From Allopusillimonas soli (lineage in GTDB: Bacteria; Pseudomonadota; Gammaproteobacteria; Burkholderiales; Burkholderiaceae_B): a stretch of DNA of 64,000 nucleotides. Position numbers and translations under genes: made by a program. Below the pieces are notes generated by a model. It was not told where the DNA came from. It did not search any database and worked only from the letters and a program-made list of their open reading frames with translations. Position 1 is the first letter of the stretch. Every line of letters begins with the position of its first letter. The stretch covers positions 186,001 through 250,000 of the forward strand of contig NZ_SDQC01000004.1 of NCBI RefSeq assembly GCF_004153445.1, written 5' to 3'. Of this stretch, positions 8,051-20,704 are shown piece by piece.

Positions 8051-9199
8051 TCAGCTTGCCAGTTGGTCGGCGAGTTGTTCGAAGAAACGCTCACAGGCGC
8101 TGACCTGCGAGACGTCGATATATTCGTTGGGCTGATGCGCCTGATCGATGGAGCCTGGGCCGCAGAGTACGACCTCGAAGCCGCGCTCTTGGAATTGGCC
8201 CGCTTCCGCCGCATAGGGAACGACATCGGTATGCGCATGGCCGCAAAGCCCGAACACAAGCTGTTGCGCCGCACCGCCCTGATCCTGCAGCGGCGGCGCG
8301 TCGGCGAGAATCTCTGTATGTATGCTGGCGGCTGGTGATACCGACTGCATTGCCGGCAGCAGACTGTCGGCATAGGCCTGGAACCGCTCGAGGTAGCGGC
8401 GCCAGTCGTCGCCCGGCAGGGTGCGGATATCCCAGACGAAGCTGCATGTGCGCGAAATGATATTGAGAGCCGTGCCGCCGTTGACGACACCTGTATGAAG
8501 GGTGGTGTATGGCGGTACAAAGCGGCATTCGGGATCGGCCTGCTCGCGATTCTCCGCCATCATGTCGTCGATGAAGGTGATGAGGCGCGCCGCGGTGGTG
8601 ACTGCGCTCACGCCGCGCTGCACCTGGCTGGAGTGTGCTTCGTGTCCGGTGACGGTGGTGCGCAGCGCCGCGATGCCCTTGTGGGCCACGATGGGGCGCA
8701 TGCTGGTGGGCTCGCCCACGATGACCGCATGCGGACGGGGAATATCGGTAACCAGGCGATCGATCATGGACGGCGCGCCAAAGCAGCCTATCTCTTCGTC
8801 GTAGCTTAGTGCCAGATGGATGGGGCGCTTGATACCTCGCTGCAGGAAATGGGGCACCATGGCCAGGGCGACGGCCGAGAAGGATTTCATGTCGCAGGTG
8901 CCTCGTCCATAGAGGCGGCCGTCTTTCTGGGTGATGGTGAACGGATCGGTATCCCAGGGCTGCCCATCGACGGGCACGACGTCGGTATGCCCGGACAGCA
9001 CCACGCCGCCTTCCTCGCTGGGGCCTATGGTGGCGAAAAGATTGGCCTTGCCGCCGTCGTCGCTGGATACCAGATGACTGTGTATGCCGTGGCTGGCAAG
9101 ATAATCGCTCACGTAATGGATGAGCTCAAGATTGGAGTTGCGTGAAACCGTGTCGAACCCGACGAGCCTGGTGATCATTTCGAGGGATTGGGGCGTCAC
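8051..9199 (-). CDS. argE: ArgE-like N-acetylornithine/N-acyl amino acid deacetylase, M20 family
   Basis: A 382-residue zinc-dependent deacylase of the M20/ArgE family. Metal and catalytic motifs are visible: SGHTDVVPVDGQPWDTDPF with the first His-x-Asp, GRGTCDMKSF with the bridging Asp, and SYDEEIGCFG with the Glu-Glu pair. The C-terminus has the PGSIDQAHQPNEYI signature of ArgE. The GTG at 9199 is preferred because AGGAGA stands upstream and the resulting MTPQSLEMITRLVGFDTVS matches the usual family N-terminus. Its place ahead of a peptide-type importer suggests that it may deacylate imported compounds instead of, or besides, acting in arginine synthesis. The symbol denotes family, not proven pathway. 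Confidence 0.85.
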   Translation of the reverse strand: MTPQSLEMITRLVGFDTVSRNSNLELIHYVSDYLASHGIHSHLVSSDDGGKANLFATIGPSEEGGVVLSGHTDVVPVDGQPWDTDPFTITQKDGRLYGRGTCDMKSFSAVALAMVPHFLQRGIKRPIHLALSYDEEIGCFGAPSMIDRLVTDIPRPHAVIVGEPTSMRPIVAHKGIAALRTTVTGHEAHSSQVQRGVSAVTTAARLITFIDDMMAENREQADPECRFVPPYTTLHTGVVNGGTALNIISRTCSFVWDIRTLPGDDWRRYLERFQAYADSLLPAMQSVSPAASIHTEILADAPPLQDQGGAAQQLVFGLCGHAHTDVVPYAAEAGQFQERGFEVVLCGPGSIDQAHQPNEYIDVSQVSACERFFEQLADQLAS

Positions 9200-9287
9200 A
9201 GCAAAGTGTCTCCTATGTGAATGCAAGGTATGCCGATGCGCGTGTGGGCGCCATCGGCGTGCCGCACTGCCTGGTGGGCGGCGGCCC

Positions 9288-9399: not shown

Positions 9400-9933
9400 A
9401 TGCACGCGCGACGTCTATTTTTTGCCCTCTGGCCCGCACAGGACGATGCCGCCCGGATAATGGCTTGGGCGCGCGATGCGCACGCCCTGTTGGGGGGGCG
9501 CATCATGCGCCAAGATACTTTGCACCTGACCCTGGCTTTCCTGGGCGGTACAGGGGAGCGGGACGTCCAGCGGCTGATCCAGGCTGTGCCCGGCTGGACG
9601 GCGCGGATCGAACCCATCACACTGCGGCGCTTCGGGCGTTTTCATGGGCCGCGCGTTGTTTGGGCGGGGCCGGACGAAAATAGTCGTATTGTCTGGCTGG
9701 ATGCATTGCATCAGGCAGTGTGGTCGCGACTCGAGTCCATGGGCTGGCAACCACCCTCCGAGGCATTCCGGCCTCATGTGTCGCTGCTGCGCCGCGCCGG
9801 ATCCGGCGACATGGCTATGCTGGGGTGCCGCCCGCCCATTACCTGGACGCCCGAGGCGTGTGTGCTGGCCGCATCCCAGCCCGACCTGGGCGGATCCCGC
9901 TACCAGGTGCTGGCCCGCATGCGGCTGGCATAG
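9400..9933 (+). CDS. thpR: RNA 2',3'-cyclic phosphodiesterase (2H/LigT family)
   Basis: A 177-residue enzyme of the 2H phosphoesterase superfamily. The two catalytic His-x-Thr/Ser-x motifs are present as HLTL (His42) and HVSL (His126), with RLFFALWP at the N-terminus as usual for LigT/ThpR. The family opens 2',3'-cyclic phosphates on RNA ends and can ligate tRNA halves in the reverse reaction. Length is normal. It is alone, divergent from the argE-like gene, and followed by the GFA-fold gene after 119 bases. Confidence 0.9.
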   Translation: MHARRLFFALWPAQDDAARIMAWARDAHALLGGRIMRQDTLHLTLAFLGGTGERDVQRLIQAVPGWTARIEPITLRRFGRFHGPRVVWAGPDENSRIVWLDALHQAVWSRLESMGWQPPSEAFRPHVSLLRRAGSGDMAMLGCRPPITWTPEACVLAASQPDLGGSRYQVLARMRLA

Positions 9934-10950: not shown

Positions 10951-11925
10951 CTATTCGATGCGGATGCCGGCCTTTTCGACTACCGCCTTCCATTTTGTGC
11001 CTTCCTTCGCAAGATACGCCCGCGTTTCGTCCGGGCTGGTGTGCGTGGGAAGCAAGTCCAGGGACTTCAGGCGCTCGCGCAATTCGGGCGAGGCAAAGGC
11101 ATCGGCCACCAGCTTGCTCCATAGTGCCTGGATGTCGCTCGGCGTGCCTTTCGGCGCCATCAGAACAAAGCCGAATCCCACATTGAAGTGATCCAGTCCG
11201 GGCAGGCCGGAGCCGGCAATCGTGGGTATGCCCGGCAGCAGCGGATCCGGTTCGCTGCCCGACACGGCTAGTGGAATCAGGCGGCCTGCATCCACATACT
11301 GCGCCACGCCGCCGATGACCAGGAAGCCGGCATCCACTCTTGCGCCGAGCAGGTCGCTCGTGGCCGGTGCGTTACCCTTGTAGGGTACGTGCGTCAGGGG
11401 AAGGTCGAGCGCCTGCGCGAACTCGGTCATGGTGAGGTGGCCGGGCGAGCCGATCCCAGCCGAAGCGTAGGTGAGGTCCTTCTTGCGTGCCAGTTCAATG
11501 AAGTCGGCCAGCGTCGTGACCCCCAGATCCTTGCGCGTGACCAGGGCCTGATTGAACGTGCCAGCCATAGTGATCGGCGCCATGACCTTGTTTACATCGA
11601 AGTCCGACTGCGCGTAGACATAAGGGTTGACAGTCGCGATGGTGTCCACGCTCAGGAGCAGCGTATAGCCGTCAGCTTGCGCGCGGGCCACATTGCGGGC
11701 CCCGATGGTGCCGGCGGCGCCCGACTTGTTCTCGACCACGACGGGCTGCTTCAGCGTCTTGCCCGCATACTCCGCAATGGAGCGCGCCAGCAGGTCCAAC
11801 GGACCACCCGCGGGATAGTTCACCACCATGGTGATAGCATGTTCCGGGTAGGCGGCCCGGGCGCTCATGCCCAGCAATAGCAGCGACACGCCTATGCAGG
11901 CGGATAGATATGTTGAAATACGCAT
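10951..11925 (-). CDS. Bug-type periplasmic receptor, tripartite tricarboxylate transporter family
   Basis: A 324-residue secreted binding protein. A signal peptide (MRISTYLSACIGVSLLLLG...ARA) is followed by YPEHAITMVVNYPAGGPLDLLAR, the opening of Bug/TctC receptors, and by VVVENKSGAAGTIGARNVARAQADGYTLL. The family binds carboxylates, amino acids or nicotinate and usually acts with TctA/TctB membrane proteins, which are not encoded here. It follows the sulfatase-type gene by 58 bases on the same strand, so its ligand may be the sulfatase product or substrate. GAGGAG stands upstream of the ATG. Confidence 0.92.
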   Translation of the reverse strand: MRISTYLSACIGVSLLLLGMSARAAYPEHAITMVVNYPAGGPLDLLARSIAEYAGKTLKQPVVVENKSGAAGTIGARNVARAQADGYTLLLSVDTIATVNPYVYAQSDFDVNKVMAPITMAGTFNQALVTRKDLGVTTLADFIELARKKDLTYASAGIGSPGHLTMTEFAQALDLPLTHVPYKGNAPATSDLLGARVDAGFLVIGGVAQYVDAGRLIPLAVSGSEPDPLLPGIPTIAGSGLPGLDHFNVGFGFVLMAPKGTPSDIQALWSKLVADAFASPELRERLKSLDLLPTHTSPDETRAYLAKEGTKWKAVVEKAGIRIE

Positions 11926-11983
11926 GGACTTATCTCCTCGTTATGATTTGCTTGATGTTCGGCTGCCTGGTGCCGGTGGATAC

Positions 11984-13567
11984 TCAGGCCAGCGCAGTTG
12001 GGTTGGGGCTGGTATCGGTATGTGCGAGCATCGTCCGCGCGAGATCCTGGAGCATCCGCGCCTTCTGGCTTTCATGAGCCGTGCTGTGCCACAGATTGTG
12101 CAGCTCCATCGGATCGGACTCCAGGTCGTAGAGTTCTCCCCATTCGATGCCGTCGTAAAGGCTGAGGCGGTGGCGACCATCGAATAGCGTGCGCATGCGC
12201 ACGCGGCTGTCAAAACCAAACATGACACGCTGCCCTTCTTCCTCGATCAGCACATGTTGCCGCACGCCACGCTGCCTGCCCGCCATGACGTCCAGCAGGT
12301 TGTGTCCCTGAATGCCGTTATAGGGAACAAGGCCGGCGCGCGCCAGTATGGTGGGTGCCACGTCCACCGTGCTGGCCAATGCATCTTCGTTATGGCGGGA
12401 TTGCGGGCAGCCTGGATCCATCCAGATGAAAGGCGTGCGTACAAGGCTCTGATAGTGAATCGGCCCCTTCCACAGCAGCTGATGATCACCCAGGTAGTCA
12501 CCGTGATCGCTCATGAATATGATGACGGTGTTGTCGTCCAGCCCATGGCGTTTCAATGTGGCCATGACGTCGCCGACGACGGCATCGATATGGGAGATAG
12601 ACCCATAGTTGAGCGCTATGGCTTCGCGCGCCTCACGCTCGGTGCAGGCAAACAGCGCGGGCGTGTGCTTCACAGCCTGGTTGCGGTCGCGCTGGGCATG
12701 CAGCCAGGCTACATGCGGCGGTGAAGCGTGCATCCCGCTCTCATGAAACGACGCGGGCAAGTCCACCTCGTCCGGATCGTACATGTCCCAATATCGCCCA
12801 TGTGGCGTAAAAGGATGGTGGGGATCCGGAAACGAGCACTGGATAAAGAACGGGCGTTCCTCCCGCGCATACTCCGCCAGCAAGGCACAGGTCTGGCTGC
12901 CGATATAACCGTTGGTGGATAGCGCTTCGGGAACGCGCGTTCGCCATGCCTGGTGCACCTTGCTCAAGGCAAAGTCGGGTGTCGGAATGGCATGCGCCTC
13001 CCCCGCCTGCTCCGCCACGTCGGGGTGTTCTCGCTCCAGCCAGCGCCAGTAGTGGCCCCACACCCGGTCGCCATGGTCCACAGCCAGATCCACGCGGGAA
13101 AAGCCGTAGAAGGGCGTTTCCAAGTCATGTGTGGGATCGTTGCGCCAAAGCGGCCCCCACTCCTGATCATAATTGCCGGGCTGATAGCGCCACGCCTCTC
13201 CTTCGGTTATTGCCTCCTCGGGACGCGGCCATTGAGGCGGTTTTCCCGTCATGTTCTGAAGATGCGACTTGCCCACGAGCGCAGTCCGATAACCCGCCTC
13301 GCGCATGACATCGACAAAGGTGCGGCTTTCGATGGCCAGCGGTATGCCATTGAGCCGCGCCCCATGCACCGAGGGCATGCGCCCCGTCATCAGCGATGCG
13401 CGGTTTGGCATGCAGATTGGCGTGGCGACATAAAAACAGTCGGCCTTCCAGCCTCTTGCCGCGATGGCGTCGATATGCGGTGTGCGCAATATGCGGTTTC
13501 CGTAGGCGCCCAGGTGGCTGGCCTTTTGCTGGTCTGTAATGAACAGGATGAAATTCGGTTTTTTCAT
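11984..13567 (-). CDS. Sulfatase-type hydrolase (alkaline phosphatase superfamily)
   Basis: A 527-residue enzyme of the sulfatase family. The formylglycine motif is CMPNRASLMTGRMPS with Cys52, fitting C-x-P-x-R. The N-terminal metal site reads TDQQ (Asp12, Gln13), where most sulfatases have Asp-Asp, and the C-terminal metal site is FMSDHGDYLGDHQLLWKG. Asp-Gln in this position is seen in phosphonate monoester hydrolase-like members, so the substrate may be a sulfate ester or a phospho/phosphonate diester. No signal peptide is present, so it acts in the cytoplasm. It pairs with the Bug receptor downstream and is divergent from a LysR gene. The Shine-Dalgarno site is weak. Confidence 0.88.
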   Translation of the reverse strand: MKKPNFILFITDQQKASHLGAYGNRILRTPHIDAIAARGWKADCFYVATPICMPNRASLMTGRMPSVHGARLNGIPLAIESRTFVDVMREAGYRTALVGKSHLQNMTGKPPQWPRPEEAITEGEAWRYQPGNYDQEWGPLWRNDPTHDLETPFYGFSRVDLAVDHGDRVWGHYWRWLEREHPDVAEQAGEAHAIPTPDFALSKVHQAWRTRVPEALSTNGYIGSQTCALLAEYAREERPFFIQCSFPDPHHPFTPHGRYWDMYDPDEVDLPASFHESGMHASPPHVAWLHAQRDRNQAVKHTPALFACTEREAREAIALNYGSISHIDAVVGDVMATLKRHGLDDNTVIIFMSDHGDYLGDHQLLWKGPIHYQSLVRTPFIWMDPGCPQSRHNEDALASTVDVAPTILARAGLVPYNGIQGHNLLDVMAGRQRGVRQHVLIEEEGQRVMFGFDSRVRMRTLFDGRHRLSLYDGIEWGELYDLESDPMELHNLWHSTAHESQKARMLQDLARTMLAHTDTSPNPTALA

Positions 13568-13632
13568 GACTGACCGTCGTTATGTGGGTGGTGCTTGCTG
13601 TGATTATGCGGTGAATCGGTATAAGCTAAAAT

Positions 13633-13645
13633 TGAAATAGTTTCA
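13633..13645. promoter_or_regulatory. Probable LysR operator (T-N11-A palindrome)
   Basis: TGAAATAGTTTCA is a perfect inverted repeat (TGAAA-TAG-TTTCA) with the T-N11-A form of a LysR-type box. It lies in the 115-base space between the divergent sulfatase-type gene and the LysR gene, 38 bases before the LysR start. Binding is inferred, not shown. Confidence 0.6.
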
Positions 13646-13682
13646 GATATCCATAACTATCTTTCATGGCAGGCTGATCATC

Positions 13683-14600
13683 ATGGACTGGAGCAGCCGA
13701 ATACGTCTGCGTAGCCTGCAAATGCTGGTTCGCTTGTGCGACGTCCGCAATATGAGCCAGGTGGCCCAGGAGTATCACCTTACCCAGCCCGCGTTGTCCA
13801 AGTGGCTGAAAGAGCTCGAGGACAGCATGGGCGCTGAGCTGTTCGCGCGGCATGCCAGAGGCGTCACGCCCACTCCCGTGGCCGAGGAACTGGCACGTCA
13901 GGCGCGCGCCATCGTCGGACGCATAGACAGGGCCAGACTGACCGTCCAGCAAATGAAGCAGGCCCAGGCAGGGCAGGTCGCCGTCGGTGTGTCGCCCATG
14001 GTTGCCATTGTGTTGTTGCCCGAGATCGTGCGCGCATTTCATGCCGATCATCCCGGTGTGTTTATCCGTATCGACGAGGAAACCCTGGATCTCCTGACGT
14101 CCAAGCTGCACACCGGCGGACTGGATGTCATCATTGGACGGGTCGAAGAAGGTGGCGTGCCGCCGGGCGTGTGCTACAGAAAGCTGGATGATGTGCCGCT
14201 ATGCCTGGCCGTGGCACCCAGTCATCCTCTTGCCGGCCGGCGCGAAGTCAGTTGGGACGAGGCGTTGGAATATCCCTGGATTGCCCCGGCCGCGGCCAGC
14301 CCGATTCGTCGCCGACTGCGCCTGGCTTTCGAGGCGCTCGGCCTGAAGGTGCCGCCGGTCATGGTGGAGTCCGCTTCAGTGTTCACCAGCGCGCGTATTG
14401 TCCAGGGTACCGATTTTGTCGTGCCGATGTCGGCCCGCCTGGCGGCCAGCCTGGGGCTGTCCCATACGCTCAATGTGCCCTGGTTTCAATTGGGCATGCA
14501 TGGCTCCATCGGCGTCATGTGGCGCCCCGAAGACCAGGATGTTCCCTTGATCCAGTCCTTCGTGGCGTGTGTTTGCAGGCAGTCTGCCAGTTTGCGCTGA
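13683..14600 (+). CDS. LysR-family transcriptional regulator
   Basis: A 305-residue LysR regulator. The winged helix-turn-helix is in residues 8-66 (SLQMLVRLCDVRNMSQVAQEYHLTQPALSKWLKELE), followed by the linker helix and a periplasmic-binding-protein-like effector domain from about residue 95. It is divergent from the sulfatase-type gene with a LysR-type palindrome between them, so it probably controls the sulfatase/Bug pair and itself. The effector is unknown. Its 3' end is followed by a hairpin that separates it from the convergent glucose dehydrogenase gene. Confidence 0.9.
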   Translation: MDWSSRIRLRSLQMLVRLCDVRNMSQVAQEYHLTQPALSKWLKELEDSMGAELFARHARGVTPTPVAEELARQARAIVGRIDRARLTVQQMKQAQAGQVAVGVSPMVAIVLLPEIVRAFHADHPGVFIRIDEETLDLLTSKLHTGGLDVIIGRVEEGGVPPGVCYRKLDDVPLCLAVAPSHPLAGRREVSWDEALEYPWIAPAAASPIRRRLRLAFEALGLKVPPVMVESASVFTSARIVQGTDFVVPMSARLAASLGLSHTLNVPWFQLGMHGSIGVMWRPEDQDVPLIQSFVACVCRQSASLR

Positions 14601-14603
14601 AGG

Positions 14604-14637
14604 GCTGCCGTGCGGCCAGCGCCGGCAGCGTGTTTTC
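14604..14637 (+). terminator. Probable terminator after the LysR gene
   Basis: GCTGCCG (14604-14610) and CGGCAGC (14623-14629) form a seven-pair GC stem followed by GTGTTTTC. It lies between the convergent LysR and glucose dehydrogenase stops. Confidence 0.5.
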
Positions 14638-14646
14638 AGATCCGCG

Positions 14647-17163
14647 TCATTTCTGTGGCAATGCAAAGGCAATGACATAGTCTCCCCGGTCGGGAGACTG
14701 TCTTGCGCCGCCGGCTGTCACGACCACGAACTGGCGCCCGCTTTCGGGCGATACGTATGTCATGGGTGTGGATTGCGCACCCACGGGCAGGCGTCCCTTC
14801 CAGAGTACCTCGCCTGTTTCCGCATCCAGCGCGCGCAAGTAATAATCTTGCGTGCCTGCGAAGAAGACCAGGCCCGATGCCGTGCTGATGGGGCCGCCCA
14901 TGGTGGGCATGCCGATGGGCACAGGTACGCCAACCTTGACGCCGCCCGCCGCCACCGTGTCCTGCAGGGTGCTGATGGGACGCTCCCAGACGACTTGGCG
15001 TTTTTGCAGGTCAATGGCCGCCATTGTGCCCCATGGCGGAGCGTGGCATGGCACGCCCAGCGGCGACATGAAGGTGTTCTTGGTGACGCCATAGGGCGTG
15101 CCGGCCTGTACATGCAGGCCATCGTGGCTTGCCGCGGCATTCGGCGCATCGGCTTCTTCACGCGATATATAGCGTAGCCATTGGGGCATGCGGATGTCGT
15201 TGACAAACAGATAGCCTCTTTGCTCGTCGATTGAAGCGCTGCCCCAATTGAAACCGCCATAGTTGCCCGGGTACTGCAGTGTTTTCCGGGTGCTGGGCGG
15301 TGTGAACTCGCCTTCATAATGCATCTTGCGGAACTCGATGCGACACCACAACTGATCGAACCATGTTGCACCCCACATACTTGCCTCGGTCAGCGGTTCC
15401 CGTCCTATGGCAGGCATGCCCGTCGAATAAGGCTGGGTGGGCGATATCCGGTCTCCTTCCTGGACATCCTGCGGCACGGGCTTTTCCTCGACGGTCGCCA
15501 GCGGTTTGCCATTGCGCCGGTCAAGCAGGAAAATCTGGCCGCGCTTGGTAAGCTGGATCAATGCCGGGATGGTGCCGCCGTTGCCGTCCGGCAGATCATA
15601 CAGCGCGGGCTGCGAGGTCACGTCATAATCCCACAAGTCATGGTGCGTGGTCTGGAAAGACCAGCGAACGCGGCCGGTAGCTATATCCAGGGCAACAACA
15701 GACGAAGAATACTTGTCGTCCAGCGCAGTGCGATGGCCGCCCCAATAGTCGGGCGTGCTGTTGCCGGTAGGCAGATAGACCAGGCCCAGCTTGTCATCGA
15801 AGGCGGGGGTGGACCACACATTGGGCGTCCCGCGCGTATACGTTTCGCCGGGCGGCGGCAGCTTGGTGATGGCCGGGTTGCCCAGGTCCCACGCCCATAC
15901 CAGCTCGCCCGTGTCCGCGTTGAAGGCGCGCACAACGCCCGAGGGCTCGCCTACCGACTTGCCGTCGTAGACCCATCCGCCCACCAGTACCATGTTGCGC
16001 ATCACGGTGGGGGCCGAGGTCGGCATATAGAAATTTCGCGGTATCTCGCCCATGCCCGCTGTCAGATCGACGGTGCCGCGATTGCCGAAACCCGCGCAGG
16101 GTTCGCCCGTCTTGGCGTCCAGCGCAATCAGCCGCGCGTCGAGTGTGGTCAGGAAAATGCGTTGTGCGCAACTGCCGCCCGCTGCATCCACGGCGTGTGC
16201 GACATCCGCATCAGTGGCGGCCTTTGCGCCGTTGACCACTGGGCGGGTGGCCGCGGCGCCGGTTTCCCTGGGCGGCGCATCGCTGTCGGCGGCCACGTCA
16301 GCTGTTCGCGCGGCCAGGGCGGCCGCTCCGGGGCCGGTTGCGTAGGCCGCCGCGTCGTAGTAGCCCACGCCTCGGCAACGGTTCCATATGCCGGTGTCCG
16401 GTGTGTCGGGGTCGTACTTCCAGCGTTGCTTGCCCGTGTCGGCGTCGAGCGCGATAACCTTGTTGTAGGGTGTGCAGACATATACGCTGTCGCCCACCTG
16501 TATGGGCGTGCCCTGATCCTCCGCGCCCTTTCCCGCGATATCGCCCGTGCGGAATGTCCAGGCAACTTCCAGTTCATCGACATTGTCCTTGTTGATTTGC
16601 GCAAAGGGTGCAAAACGCGTGCCGGCGGGTGTACGGCCATAATACTGCCACGTCGATGCCTTGGCCTCCCCAGGCGTTGGCGCGCTGACAGCCTGTGTGG
16701 TGTTTTGCGCCTTGCCGGCCTTGATCGCCCTATGAGGCTGCAGCATGCCGTACCCGCCCAGGCCCAATGCGGCCAGCGTCAGGACCGCCAGCGACCAGCA
16801 GGCCGCCCGCCCCCGTCCGCCGCGCAGGCGCGGCATCAGCAGGAAGCAGAAGAAAGCCAGCACCAGCACCGGCGCGAGCCGCGGTACCAGCGGCCAGAAT
16901 GCGAATCCGACCTCCCAGATCGCCCAGGCGATGGTGCAGATGAAAATGAGCAGGTACAGCCACGCGCCCAGCGCCATGCTTGCCGCCAACAGCACACCGG
17001 ACAGCACCAGCGCGACACCGGTGATCAGGTAGTACCAGGAGCCGTCCAGCGACACCAATTGCATGCCGCCCACGGCGAGCACCAGGCCGATGATGGTCAG
17101 GACAATGCCAAATACCACGGCTGTCCTGCTTCGAGACGCGGGAGGGGTATGATTTTCACGCAT
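14647..17163 (-). CDS. gcd: Membrane-bound PQQ-dependent dehydrogenase, glucose dehydrogenase family
   Basis: An 838-residue quinoprotein. Residues 1-145 hold about five membrane helices, the anchor that donates electrons to ubiquinone. The rest is a periplasmic eight-bladed PQQ propeller beginning STWQYYGRTPAGTRFAPF. Propeller motifs such as VIALDADTGKQRWKYDPD are clear, and HHDLWDYDVTSQPALYDLP is the segment that carries the catalytic Asp in Escherichia coli Gcd. It oxidises glucose or other aldoses to lactones in the periplasm; quinate/shikimate-type activity is the main alternative. Residues about 275-330 are an Ala-rich insertion. The gene follows the PqqU-type receptor by 29 bases in one operon. 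No pqq synthesis genes are in the window. Confidence 0.92.
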   Translation of the reverse strand: MRENHTPPASRSRTAVVFGIVLTIIGLVLAVGGMQLVSLDGSWYYLITGVALVLSGVLLAASMALGAWLYLLIFICTIAWAIWEVGFAFWPLVPRLAPVLVLAFFCFLLMPRLRGGRGRAACWSLAVLTLAALGLGGYGMLQPHRAIKAGKAQNTTQAVSAPTPGEAKASTWQYYGRTPAGTRFAPFAQINKDNVDELEVAWTFRTGDIAGKGAEDQGTPIQVGDSVYVCTPYNKVIALDADTGKQRWKYDPDTPDTGIWNRCRGVGYYDAAAYATGPGAAALAARTADVAADSDAPPRETGAAATRPVVNGAKAATDADVAHAVDAAGGSCAQRIFLTTLDARLIALDAKTGEPCAGFGNRGTVDLTAGMGEIPRNFYMPTSAPTVMRNMVLVGGWVYDGKSVGEPSGVVRAFNADTGELVWAWDLGNPAITKLPPPGETYTRGTPNVWSTPAFDDKLGLVYLPTGNSTPDYWGGHRTALDDKYSSSVVALDIATGRVRWSFQTTHHDLWDYDVTSQPALYDLPDGNGGTIPALIQLTKRGQIFLLDRRNGKPLATVEEKPVPQDVQEGDRISPTQPYSTGMPAIGREPLTEASMWGATWFDQLWCRIEFRKMHYEGEFTPPSTRKTLQYPGNYGGFNWGSASIDEQRGYLFVNDIRMPQWLRYISREEADAPNAAASHDGLHVQAGTPYGVTKNTFMSPLGVPCHAPPWGTMAAIDLQKRQVVWERPISTLQDTVAAGGVKVGVPVPIGMPTMGGPISTASGLVFFAGTQDYYLRALDAETGEVLWKGRLPVGAQSTPMTYVSPESGRQFVVVTAGGARQSPDRGDYVIAFALPQK

Positions 17164-17192
17164 GGCGCTTCTGCCTGAAGTGAGTGAGAAAG

Positions 17193-19367
17193 TCAGAACG
17201 CATGGGCCAGGCTGATGCCCGCTGTCCAGTTGCGGCCCGGCGCAGGCTCGTAATAGCGGCCCCAGGATGCATTGACGACAGTGGCCCCTGCGTAGTGGCG
17301 ATCAAATACATTGTCGAGGCGCGCGAATGCATCCAGCGTCCAGTCCTGAAGCTTCCAACGGTAGCCTGCGTGAACGGATGCTGTAAAGTAGGCCGGTGCA
17401 TATTCGTCGTTACTGTCGTTAACATAAAGCCGGCTCAGATAGCGCCCCTCCACGCCGGCGCGCCAGCCTTTCTCCTGGGCCCAGTCCAGGGCCGCATATA
17501 CGGCATGTTCTGCAATGCCCGGGATGCGGTTGCCATCGGGGACAAGCACCGCGCTGCCGCGCGTGTCCACTGTGCGAAAGCTGTCTTTGTAGCGCGCATC
17601 CAGCCACGTATAGGCCAGATAGGTGCTCAGGTTGTCGGCCACCTCGCCCGACCAGGCAAGTTCGAAACCATTGCGGCGCGTATGGCCTGCATTCTGGAAA
17701 GTCGTGCGTCCGCCGTCGGAACGAGCGGTTACGATTTCGTTGCGCGTGCGGGTCTGGAACAGAGCCGCAGTGAGCATTCCCCCGGCCACCCTGGCCTTGG
17801 CACCCACCTCCAGGCTGGTGTTTTCCGACGGCATCAGGGCCAGGTTCAGGCCAGGCCTTCCGTCGGGACGGTAGGACAGCTCACTGAAGGTGGGTGTCTC
17901 AAAGCCGCGCCCCGCCGTCGCATAGAGCATGAGATCGGTCGACGCCTGATAGCGCAGCGCGGCGGAGGGCAGCAGCTTGCGGTAGCGTACGGTGCCGCTG
18001 TCGTCGGGATTGCCTGCCGCGATGTAGTCGTCGTCCGAGTCGAAGTGCACGGTGCTGTACCGCAGGCCCGCGTCCACGCTCCATCTGTCGGTAAATTGCC
18101 ATGAGGCTTGCGCATAGGGATCCACGTTCCAGATATCGTTTGTCTCCTTGCGGCGCAAATTGCCCTGCACGCCTGTGGCAAGGCCTGCCGTGCCCGCCAC
18201 GAAGTTCTCGTAGCCGCGCCGGTCTTCCGTCATGGTGTCGTATGCGACTCCGCCAACAATCGTCAGGGGCCGGCCAGCCAGGCGCAGGCGGGAAGTCCAG
18301 CGGGCATCCAGGCCGCCGTAGCGACGCTGCAGGTCCACCACTCCGCCGGCGCTGCCAGGCGCCAACTGTGCGCTCACCGGTACGCCCAAAAATTGCACGG
18401 TCCGCCGTTGCCCATAGTAGGCCATGAGACGCAGTGTGTTGTGCGCGTCAACCTCGCGTTCATAGTGCAAGCCGCCCTGTGTCTGGCGTACCGTCTTGCG
18501 CGTGTTATAGGCAAGCGCGCCCGGAGAGGCCTGCCGGGGGTCGTTCATGAATTCATCGTAGGTCAGCCCTTGCGGATCGTCCGCCTTGACGTCCACACTG
18601 TTCAGCACCAGCGTCAGGCTGCTGTCTTCGTCGGGCGTCCAGCCCAGCTTTGCGTTGGCAAGGTTCTTGCGGGCGCTGCTGTGATCGCGATAGCCCTGCG
18701 TCACGTAGCGGTTGGCACTGACCAGATAGTCAAGCCCTGTGCCGGCACGTGCACCGCTGGCCTTGGCGCCGTAGCGGAACTGGCTGTCGCTGCCGGCGGC
18801 GAAGCTGCTCTCCAGCGTGGGCGGGTCCTTGCCGTGCTCGGTGAACACTTGCACAACCCCGCCCGAGGCATTGCCGTACAAGGCGGAGAACGGCCCGCGC
18901 AATATCTCCATGCTGTCAATGGAAGCGATATCGATATTCGATGTCTGGCCTTGCCCATCCGGCATGGTGGCCGGAATACCGTCCACATATAGCCGGACAC
19001 CCCGCACGCCATAGGTGGAGCGCGCGCCGAACCCTCGTATGGACAGTTGGAGGTCTTGCGCATAGTTTTGCCTGTTCTGTATCAGCAGGCCGGGCACGCG
19101 CACCAGACTTTCAGAGAGATTCACCTGCATCTGATCGCGGCGCATGAGGGTGCCATCCACCAGATCGATGGACGCTGGCGTTGAGAAGGCGGGCCGCTCC
19201 AGCTGCGCGCCTTGGATGGTGATCGCCGGCAGCGCTTGTATGGCGTCCTTCGAGGCTTGGGCTTGCGCGCACAGAGGCCAGATGGCGGCAAGCACCGCCA
19301 GACGGGCAAGCAGCATAAGCTGCCTGATGTCCTTGATGCGGCGTATGGCCTGCGGTGGAGTCGTCAT
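17193..19367 (-). CDS. pqqU: TonB-dependent outer-membrane receptor for PQQ (PqqU/YncD type)
   Basis: A 724-residue TonB-dependent receptor with a signal peptide (residues 1-36, ending CAQAQ), a plug domain and a 22-strand-type barrel ending in Phe. The plug contains NLSESLVRVPGLLIQNRQNY, SIRGFGARSTYGVRGVRLY, VDGIPATMPDGQGQTSNID and LRGPFSALYGNASGGV. From memory these match Escherichia coli YncD, now PqqU, the high-affinity PQQ receptor, nearly residue for residue; barrel motifs (GRGFETPTFSELSYRPDG and YYEPAPGRNW) also agree. It would import PQQ across the outer membrane. The neighbouring PQQ-dependent dehydrogenase strongly supports this. The start at 19367 gives a normal signal peptide; a 25-codon longer frame does not. 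Confidence 0.9.
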   Translation of the reverse strand: MTTPPQAIRRIKDIRQLMLLARLAVLAAIWPLCAQAQASKDAIQALPAITIQGAQLERPAFSTPASIDLVDGTLMRRDQMQVNLSESLVRVPGLLIQNRQNYAQDLQLSIRGFGARSTYGVRGVRLYVDGIPATMPDGQGQTSNIDIASIDSMEILRGPFSALYGNASGGVVQVFTEHGKDPPTLESSFAAGSDSQFRYGAKASGARAGTGLDYLVSANRYVTQGYRDHSSARKNLANAKLGWTPDEDSSLTLVLNSVDVKADDPQGLTYDEFMNDPRQASPGALAYNTRKTVRQTQGGLHYEREVDAHNTLRLMAYYGQRRTVQFLGVPVSAQLAPGSAGGVVDLQRRYGGLDARWTSRLRLAGRPLTIVGGVAYDTMTEDRRGYENFVAGTAGLATGVQGNLRRKETNDIWNVDPYAQASWQFTDRWSVDAGLRYSTVHFDSDDDYIAAGNPDDSGTVRYRKLLPSAALRYQASTDLMLYATAGRGFETPTFSELSYRPDGRPGLNLALMPSENTSLEVGAKARVAGGMLTAALFQTRTRNEIVTARSDGGRTTFQNAGHTRRNGFELAWSGEVADNLSTYLAYTWLDARYKDSFRTVDTRGSAVLVPDGNRIPGIAEHAVYAALDWAQEKGWRAGVEGRYLSRLYVNDSNDEYAPAYFTASVHAGYRWKLQDWTLDAFARLDNVFDRHYAGATVVNASWGRYYEPAPGRNWTAGISLAHAF

Positions 19368-19525
19368 GTGAAATGGAAAGCGAAACGGACAGACAGTCCA
19401 GGGATGATACCGCGTGAGCGGCGGCTCGCCCTGCCCTGGCAATCCGCATGCCCGCGCCGCGGCCGCTGTCCGGCATCCAGTAGAATAGAAAGGCTCACTC
19501 CTCTTTCACCACCCCGCACTCCCTC

Positions 19526-20704
19526 ATGGGCGAAGCCAGCTTCAGTCTCAAGAAAATAGCCATTCCAGCCTACGGCCCATCTGTGCTTTTCGGTTTGGGC
19601 AATGGCGCCATCCTGCCTGTCATTGCGCTGAGCGCCCGTGATCTCGGCGCTTCGCCGGCGCTGGCCGGCCTTATCGTTGCCCTGATCGGCCTGGGGTCGC
19701 TGGCCACGAATATTCCCGCCGCGCTGGTCACGGCCCGCTTTGGCGAGCGCAAGGCACTGACGGGGGCTTCGACGGTCATGGTGGCGGCATTGCTGCTATG
19801 CATCTTTGCGCGCAGTGAAGCCTTGCTGGCGGTCAGCACACTGCTCATCGGCACAGCGACTTCGGTGTTTTACCTGGCCCGCCAAACCTATCTGATCGAG
19901 GCGGTTCCGTTTGCCATGCGTGCGCGAGCCCTGTCCACACTGGGCGGCACACATCGCATCGGCATGTTCTTCGGCCCTTTCGCGGGGGCGGCGCTCATGC
20001 ATTTTCTGGGCCTTGCCGGCGCCTATTGGGTGGGCATCGCCGCCCTGACGGGAGCGGGCCTGCTGTCCTGGTCCATACCTGACCTGCACGCAGGCCCCAA
20101 GGATGAAACACAGGTCAATGCGGCCAAGCCGCGCATGGCTGCCATAGCGCGCACGCATGCTTCGGTTTTTCTGACGTTGGGCGTGGGTATTCTGCTCATC
20201 AGCGCCATGCGTGCCGGCCGCCAGGTTGTCATTCCCCTATGGGCGGATCACATTGGTCTGAGCCCCGCCGCGACATCCATCATTTTCGGCCTGACATCCG
20301 CCGTCGACATGCTGGTGTTCTATCCAGCGGGGAAAATCATGGACCAGTATGGCCGCCTGTGGGTCGCGCTGCCCTGCGCACTGATCATGGGTCTGGCGCT
20401 GCTCAGCATACCATTGACGGGCGTATTGATTACGTTTTTGACCGTTTCCATGCTCATGGGGCTTGGCAATGGTTTTGGGTCCGGCATCAATATGACATTG
20501 GGCGCGGATGCGTCGCCGTCCCATGGGCGCACCGAGTTCCTGGGGCTCTGGCGGCTCATCAGCGATGTGGGCACCAGTGCTGGCCCTGTCATTCTGTCTG
20601 GCATCACCGCGCTTGTTTCACTCGGCGCGGGCATTGCGCTTATCGGCTCTTTCGGTTTTGTGGCCGCGGCCATATTCTGGCGCAGCCTGCCGCATGGACG
20701 GTAG
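19526..20704 (+). CDS. Major facilitator superfamily transporter
   Basis: A 392-residue transporter with about 12 membrane segments. The A-motif region between helices 2 and 3 reads TARFGERKALTGAS, and the pseudo-symmetric loop after helix 8 reads GKIMDQYGRLW, as in the drug/metabolite efflux branch of the family. The substrate is unknown. It is divergent from pqqU and its stop lies only five bases from the stop of the convergent LysR gene. No good Shine-Dalgarno site precedes the ATG. Confidence 0.87.
   Translation: MGEASFSLKKIAIPAYGPSVLFGLGNGAILPVIALSARDLGASPALAGLIVALIGLGSLATNIPAALVTARFGERKALTGASTVMVAALLLCIFARSEALLAVSTLLIGTATSVFYLARQTYLIEAVPFAMRARALSTLGGTHRIGMFFGPFAGAALMHFLGLAGAYWVGIAALTGAGLLSWSIPDLHAGPKDETQVNAAKPRMAAIARTHASVFLTLGVGILLISAMRAGRQVVIPLWADHIGLSPAATSIIFGLTSAVDMLVFYPAGKIMDQYGRLWVALPCALIMGLALLSIPLTGVLITFLTVSMLMGLGNGFGSGINMTLGADASPSHGRTEFLGLWRLISDVGTSAGPVILSGITALVSLGAGIALIGSFGFVAAAIFWRSLPHGR

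Follow-up and report, generated by a model that had tools for sequence, protein, structure and literature searches.

Title: A pqqU-type receptor gene next to a QuiA-like dehydrogenase gene in Allopusillimonas soli: a candidate unit for scavenging and using PQQ

How might a bacterium supply a pyrroloquinoline quinone (PQQ)-dependent dehydrogenase with its cofactor, and which substrate would such an enzyme oxidise? These questions are raised by two neighbouring genes of Allopusillimonas soli located in a 64,000-nucleotide stretch of DNA (positions 186,001 to 250,000 of contig NZ_SDQC01000004.1; G000:C13:186001-250000), hereafter the window, which belongs to a genome of 4.15 Mb in 18 contigs that is 99.99% complete. 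The open reading frame (ORF) listing confirmed both genes on the minus strand, at 17193-19442 and 14647-17163. The first encodes a pqqU-type TonB-dependent receptor of 724 amino acids, read from an ATG at 19367 (17193-19367), with the mechanical ORF extending to the first TTG at 19442; the second encodes a membrane-bound PQQ dehydrogenase of 838 amino acids (14647-17163), which is QuiA-like and presumably of the quinate/shikimate type. The two genes adjoin, as an earlier note on this DNA had stated, and the 29 bases between the receptor stop and the dehydrogenase start (17164-17192, minus strand) contain no site listed by the terminator scan. It is proposed here, with a probability of roughly 65%, that the pair forms a two-gene PQQ scavenge-and-use unit in which the dehydrogenase acts most likely on quinate or shikimate.

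The receptor and the adjoining dehydrogenase

In a profile search, the receptor matched the family NF041535 (TonB_rec_PqqU) with an E-value of 1.6e-281 (935.6 bits), and it also matched the solved YncD/PqqU chains 6v81 (E 9e-227) and 9c4o (E 6e-226). It contains the Pfam domains PF07715 and PF00593 (TonB plug and barrel) and is 52% identical to Escherichia coli PqqU in an alignment with the NC_000913 protein; the resemblance over plug and barrel that the earlier note had recognised is thereby upheld. In particular, the receptor shares with the E. coli protein described in PMC12124388 nine of eleven PQQ-contacting residues named there, namely Q84, Y99, Q121, K274, R304, Q308, R365, Y481, and R536 (E. 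coli PqqU numbering), and differs from it by having L in place of Q310 and S in place of N477. According to the same source, a PqqU protein is defined by an aromatic residue at position 99 and arginines at positions 304 and 365 (PMC12124388). The window protein has kept this signature as Y119, R321, and R383, and none of the 127 sequences in the alignment lacks it; besides those of E. coli and the window, these come from 125 loci, with some genomes represented more than once. The top-ranked named relative is the receptor of Allopusillimonas ginsengisoli, with 66% identity, and two lower-ranked relatives reach 67%. Judged from these features, the receptor is predicted to import PQQ. Unlike the window gene, E. 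coli pqqU does not adjoin a dehydrogenase gene: in strain K-12, gcd (138835-141225) and pqqU (1520963-1523065) are unlinked, in agreement with the earlier note.

The dehydrogenase matched TIGR03074, a mixed family of glucose, quinate, and shikimate dehydrogenases, with 1031.5 bits (cut-off 832.65) over residues 17-836, and it aligns end to end with E. coli Gcd at 42-44% identity. However, both histidine motifs of Gcd are missing. At positions 262 and 775, where Gcd has histidines that we take from mutant studies to be important, the alignments place W or R and a gap, respectively. Gcd-type enzymes carry the motifs QHxTCRG and GGHGSxGTK, whereas the window enzyme carries WNRCRG and GGARQSPDRGD. 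Following the W-x-RCRG motif, approximately residues 263-331 form an alanine-rich stretch that is longer than in E. coli Gcd.

The motif set of the quinate type was identified by gene context, with enzymes from Acinetobacter and Klebsiella as anchors. The Acinetobacter gene (L244:8515-10944) follows pcaD, pcaH, pcaG, and a gene for an aroD-type dehydroquinate dehydratase, and its product has the motifs WERCRG and GGARQSPDHGD; this context agrees with the pcaI-quiA operon and the roles of QuiA, QuiB, and QuiC as described in PMC4213383. The Klebsiella enzyme (L246) is of the same motif type, and its gene is preceded by pcaHG and one LysR gene. In a 63-sequence tree, E. coli Gcd and another enzyme of the window genome fall into a Gcd clade (n=22), and within the remainder a clade of 32 sequences holds the window, Acinetobacter, and Klebsiella enzymes. 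When the diagnostic motifs were masked, forcing the window enzyme into the Gcd group was rejected by the approximately unbiased test (p-AU 1.9e-67), and its placement with the quinate-type group received a support of 99; the groups for these constraint tests were named after the 63-sequence tree had been seen. On the basis of the missing histidine motifs and the tree, the candidate identification as a glucose dehydrogenase, which the earlier note had made, was abandoned. The window enzyme and Acinetobacter QuiA are 44% identical and share both the clade and the motifs W-x-RCRG and GGARQSPD, but the Acinetobacter gene follows pca and dehydroquinase genes, whereas the window gene follows pqqU in a genome without a pcaH match.

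Closer relatives of the window enzyme are found in five genomes of genus g43, whose dehydrogenases are 64-66% identical to it. Three of these loci (L188, L191, and L192) share the gene order dehydrogenase, LysR regulator, pcaH, pcaG; at L192, family matches confirmed the last two. Some members of the window enzyme's subclade are thus connected with the protocatechuate pathway. Taken together, clade membership, motifs, and the gene context of relatives suggest that the window enzyme most likely oxidises quinate and/or shikimate.

PQQ supply and recurrence of the gene pair

The search of the window genome for PQQ synthesis genes, which covered pqqC, pqqD, and pqqE but not pqqA, pqqB, or pqqF, gave no match for pqqD (with a control that matched in 3 of 14) and none for pqqC, for which no control matched in a first search and other genomes did match in a family-wide one. 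For pqqE, nothing exceeded the cut-off of 381, and two weak matches scored 57.1 and 48.6 bits. Across 250 genomes of the family Alcaligenaceae, pqqC matched 54 genomes at E-values up to 1e-30, 53 of them above the cut-off, including two of the same genus as the window (G080 and G102). In G080, the genes lie in the row pqqB, pqqC, a 91-amino-acid ORF, and pqqE; this ORF reached no family at E 1e-30. The five same-genus genomes in the sample are divided between PqqU without pqqC (the window genome G000 and G052) and pqqC without PqqU (G080 and G102), and the fifth (G013) has neither, nor a dehydrogenase match. Such mutual exclusivity is the pattern expected if genomes either make or import PQQ. 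It fails family-wide, where 68 dehydrogenase-bearing genomes comprise 43 with PqqU only, 10 with both, 4 with pqqC only, and 11 with neither. The last group consists of G029, G043, G073, G088, G150, G157, G159, G165, G178, G189, and G198, and in G165, G189, and G198 the dehydrogenase gene lies near pcaHG. Fragmented pqqU matches occur in G137:C4, G188:C1, G082:C2, and G092:C1 and point to gene decay or to errors in the sequence; two of these genomes, G137 and G188, carry pqqC as well.

PQQ scavenging by PqqU in cells without PQQ synthesis has been established and is common; according to PMC12124388, synthesis genes accompany PqqU in 23% of the genomes that encode it, and a PQQ dehydrogenase is predicted in 67%. 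For the window genome, scavenging is a well-supported prediction because the receptor signature is kept, pqqC and pqqD are unmatched and pqqE is below its cut-off, and pqqC and PqqU replace each other within the genus. The cell would presumably depend on its neighbours for PQQ. The earlier note had proposed just this, an apoenzyme made at home and a cofactor taken from neighbours; the importer beside the apoenzyme and the outcome of the pqqC, pqqD, and pqqE searches bear it out in part, whereas the pairing that it had relied on is by itself no sign of piracy (see below).

To what extent the pairing recurs was assessed in the same 250 genomes, from which both PqqU and dehydrogenase matches were taken. 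A strong NF041535 match (at least about 450 bits, or several pieces at one place) defined a PqqU genome, of which there were 103 among the matches listed, ranked by E-value; up to three dehydrogenase candidates were scored per genome, so that some dehydrogenases may be missed. Both proteins are encoded in 53 genomes, and in 17 of these the genes are adjacent, with 39-781 bases between the matches. Adjacency is distributed over 8 of 19 genera, while about 0.1 pairs would be expected under a uniform-position model that ignores relatedness. In the linked loci, the receptor gene comes first in seven cases and the enzyme gene in six (same strand, 13), and the genes are convergent in three and divergent in one. 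Pattern typing of the dehydrogenases in PqqU-bearing genomes showed linkage for 13/24 of the quinate type, 3/40 of the Gcd type, and 1/16 others; after rows had been moved by hand, the ratios were 14/29 for the quinate type versus 3/43 for the Gcd type. Because genomes from the same genus do not count as independent cases, it should be added that linked quinate-type genes occur in six genera and linked Gcd-type genes in two.

The typing covered 96 of 100 dehydrogenase rows (G011:C30, G080:C43, G102:C33, and G029:C2 were left out), and 17 rows were pattern-typed as other. The rows moved by hand are among these: L202, L206, L209, and L213, which the tree places in the quinate-type clade; the linked L084, which has a WQRCRG motif and a truncated end and is absent from the tree; and L089, L224, and L227, which have Gcd-type motifs. 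A class-wide dehydrogenase search at E 1e-150, which found 5 of 369 genomes, was too strict for a clade survey.

Among named genomes, a dehydrogenase gene lies in the examined flank of 10 of 80 PqqU loci, some of which are cut by contig ends; examples are Advenella kashmirensis, Bordetella pseudohinzii, a Citrobacter sp., Serratia, and Rahnella. The Serratia enzymes near PqqU are 38% identical and were left untyped. On the Novosphingobium plasmid pHR1a (L248:531-5228), a TonB receptor gene directly precedes a gene for a membrane PQQ dehydrogenase of the mixed family; the receptor has no PqqU match at E 1e-20, and the arrangement may represent a pairing of another kind. A genome from a different family of the class (G614) encodes a PqqU-like receptor that is only distantly related (L242:5219-7282; 395 bits to NF041535), and its gene is convergent to that of a dehydrogenase with Gcd-type motifs.

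Competing explanations

Several observations weigh against a unit that scavenges PQQ for the oxidation of quinate or shikimate. The receptor scores below the curated NF041535 cut-off of 1200, which is an annotation threshold and not a biological definition and which none of the 250 family genomes reached. pqqC is present in 7 of the 17 linked genomes, six of them from one genus; thus, adjacency is no mark of auxotrophy, and linkage to pqqU was rejected as proof of PQQ piracy. Moreover, the 11 of 68 dehydrogenase-bearing genomes that have neither PqqU nor pqqC imply that other PQQ sources exist. The remaining points concern the substrate. The window enzyme lies outside the narrower subclade of the two anchors L244 and L246 (p-AU 7e-4), and no pcaHG is present in the examined flank of two of the five g43 loci (L183 and L184). 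In the window genome, pcaH had no match (with a control that matched in 4 of 14) and one type II dehydroquinase was found (type I was not searched), so that searches for these two genes revealed no route from quinate to protocatechuate; searches for ligA and an Acinetobacter-type QuiC also gave no match, but they lacked a positive control and are uninformative. Finally, homologues of pcaH, pcaG, and Acinetobacter-type quiB and quiC are missing from the examined flanks of all 17 pqqU-linked loci, the window included.

This last result lowers confidence in the proposed unit and raises it for the alternative that the enzyme, although of this clade, acts on some other polyol, be it cyclic or linear, and that "quinate-type" describes ancestry only. 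The distinct subclade and the downstream genes not found in the genome speak in the same direction, as does a Rhizobium relative encoded near a glycerol kinase gene. However, in three genomes only one gene separates pcaHG from a member of the window's own subclade, with 64-65% identity to the window enzyme. We consider this explanation unlikely, but not so unlikely that it could be set aside lightly.

It is also conceivable, though improbable, that the two genes came together by chance, the dehydrogenase gene having arrived beside an old pqqU locus without becoming co-regulated. In A. ginsengisoli (L093), pqqU has the neighbours that it has in the window, but with no block of genes in between: on one side lies a major facilitator superfamily (MFS) transporter gene, and on the other, directly, a gene whose product starts like that of window ORF 10053 (matched by eye), then homologues of 9400-9933 and 8051-9226. 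The window block 10951-17163, which comprises four genes (for a TctC-type binding protein, a sulfatase, a LysR regulator, and the dehydrogenase), is absent there. Its G+C content resembles that of its surroundings, and the block was either gained in the window genome or lost in A. ginsengisoli. The varying orientation of linked pairs also fits a chance encounter. Nevertheless, pairing in 8 of 19 genera is far above the uniform expectation, and a tandem order with the receptor first is common to several separate loci.

The genes on either side of the pair have an uncertain link to it. The MFS transporter (19526-20704, plus strand) is divergent from pqqU and 75.5% identical to its counterpart near A. 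ginsengisoli pqqU. The LysR regulator (13683-14600, plus strand) converges on the dehydrogenase gene and diverges from the sulfatase gene, to which it may therefore belong. A role as the regulator of the two-gene unit is unsupported, as the protein shares 26-31% identity with the LysR proteins encoded near other dehydrogenase genes. Its top NCBIfam match is PcaQ (146 bits, cut-off 304), which is likewise the top family match of the LysR protein behind the g43 dehydrogenase L183; this coincidence is suggestive only.

The version of the earlier note, in which a Gcd-type glucose dehydrogenase forms gluconate with scavenged PQQ, is very unlikely. It draws on the common TIGR03074 family, the identity to E. 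coli Gcd with most other compared positions shared, and the fact that pqqU stands beside a Gcd-type enzyme in 3 of 17 linked family genomes; moreover, the tree joins E. coli Gcd with the enzyme encoded beside pqqU at the Rahnella locus L163. Opposed to this are the positions of H262 and H775, which the window enzyme has not kept, the rejected grouping with Gcd under masked motifs, and the presence of another, Gcd-type enzyme in the same genome. The latter is full length and encoded on contig C11 (L071:7358-9856); an assay of gluconate formation, as suggested in the earlier note, would consequently be expected to read the C11 enzyme and not the window enzyme.

Upstream of this Gcd-type gene on C11 lies a gene for a ZnuD-like TonB receptor (L071:9999-12068, minus strand; NF038289, 742.9 bits, cut-off 950). 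Homologues of the receptor precede the dehydrogenase gene in three other dehydrogenase-bearing genomes of the genus (L083, L222, and L226), whether these bear pqqC or PqqU, and the dehydrogenase motifs of L226 have diverged. Judging by the gene order, a link between zinc and acid production is possible.

That the cell makes PQQ with genes that were missed, and that the receptor merely recaptures leaked PQQ, is hardly credible: pqqC accompanies PqqU and a dehydrogenase in 10 of 53 family genomes, and import may also prevent the loss of PQQ by diffusion (PMC12124388), but pqqC and pqqD were unmatched and pqqE fell below its cut-off in a 99.99%-complete genome, and the pqqC search did match two genomes of the same genus.

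Proposed mechanism and significance

In the proposed scavenge-and-use unit, pqqU and the dehydrogenase gene are presumably co-transcribed. The receptor would bind nanomolar extracellular PQQ at the outer membrane, and energy delivered through TonB would move the cofactor into the periplasm, where it would load the membrane-anchored apo-dehydrogenase encoded by the next gene. Imported PQQ would also serve the second, Gcd-type dehydrogenase encoded on C11; the active domain of Gcd is periplasmic. Within the periplasm, the QuiA-like enzyme would oxidise quinate and/or shikimate and pass electrons to ubiquinone, as has been described for QuiA, whose active domain is periplasmic and whose quinate dehydrogenase activity delivers electrons to ubiquinone (PMC4213383).

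PqqU and PQQ scavenging are already known; the fresh point is the pairing with a quinate-type enzyme. A literature search at the level of titles and abstracts found no report of pqqU clustered with a quinate-type dehydrogenase gene, and no mention of pqqU-dehydrogenase clustering was found in the consulted parts of PMC12124388. That paper describes pqqU in synteny with the pqq biosynthesis operon in four Burkholderiales. In both cases pqqU is linked to another PQQ gene, but its partner in those bacteria is the biosynthesis operon; in the window the partner encodes a PQQ-dependent enzyme, and the searches for pqqC, pqqD, and pqqE detected no biosynthesis gene above cut-off. The genome paper of Tetrathiobacter kashmirensis (Alcaligenaceae) mentions both the biosynthesis of PQQ and a glucose dehydrogenase dependent on it, but neither "quinate" nor "yncD" (PMC3669393).

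These considerations have a practical consequence for annotation, in that the label "glucose/quinate/shikimate family" on a pqqU neighbour should not be taken to mean a glucose dehydrogenase. They also connect the scavenging of PQQ with an enzyme different from glucose dehydrogenase, and the exchange of pqqC (G080 and G102) for PqqU (G000 and G052) within one genus offers a natural comparison. Tentatively, pqqU and a quinate/shikimate-type dehydrogenase gene may constitute a "bring your own cofactor" module that recurs among genomes and is perhaps mobile. By acquiring the enzyme beside a PQQ importer, a bacterium unable to make PQQ would gain periplasmic oxidation of plant-derived quinate or shikimate and thereby plant-related carbon that is usable only where neighbours leak PQQ. 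If this is true, the use of quinate and shikimate would depend on PQQ from neighbouring cells, a cross-feeding dependency that is directly testable.

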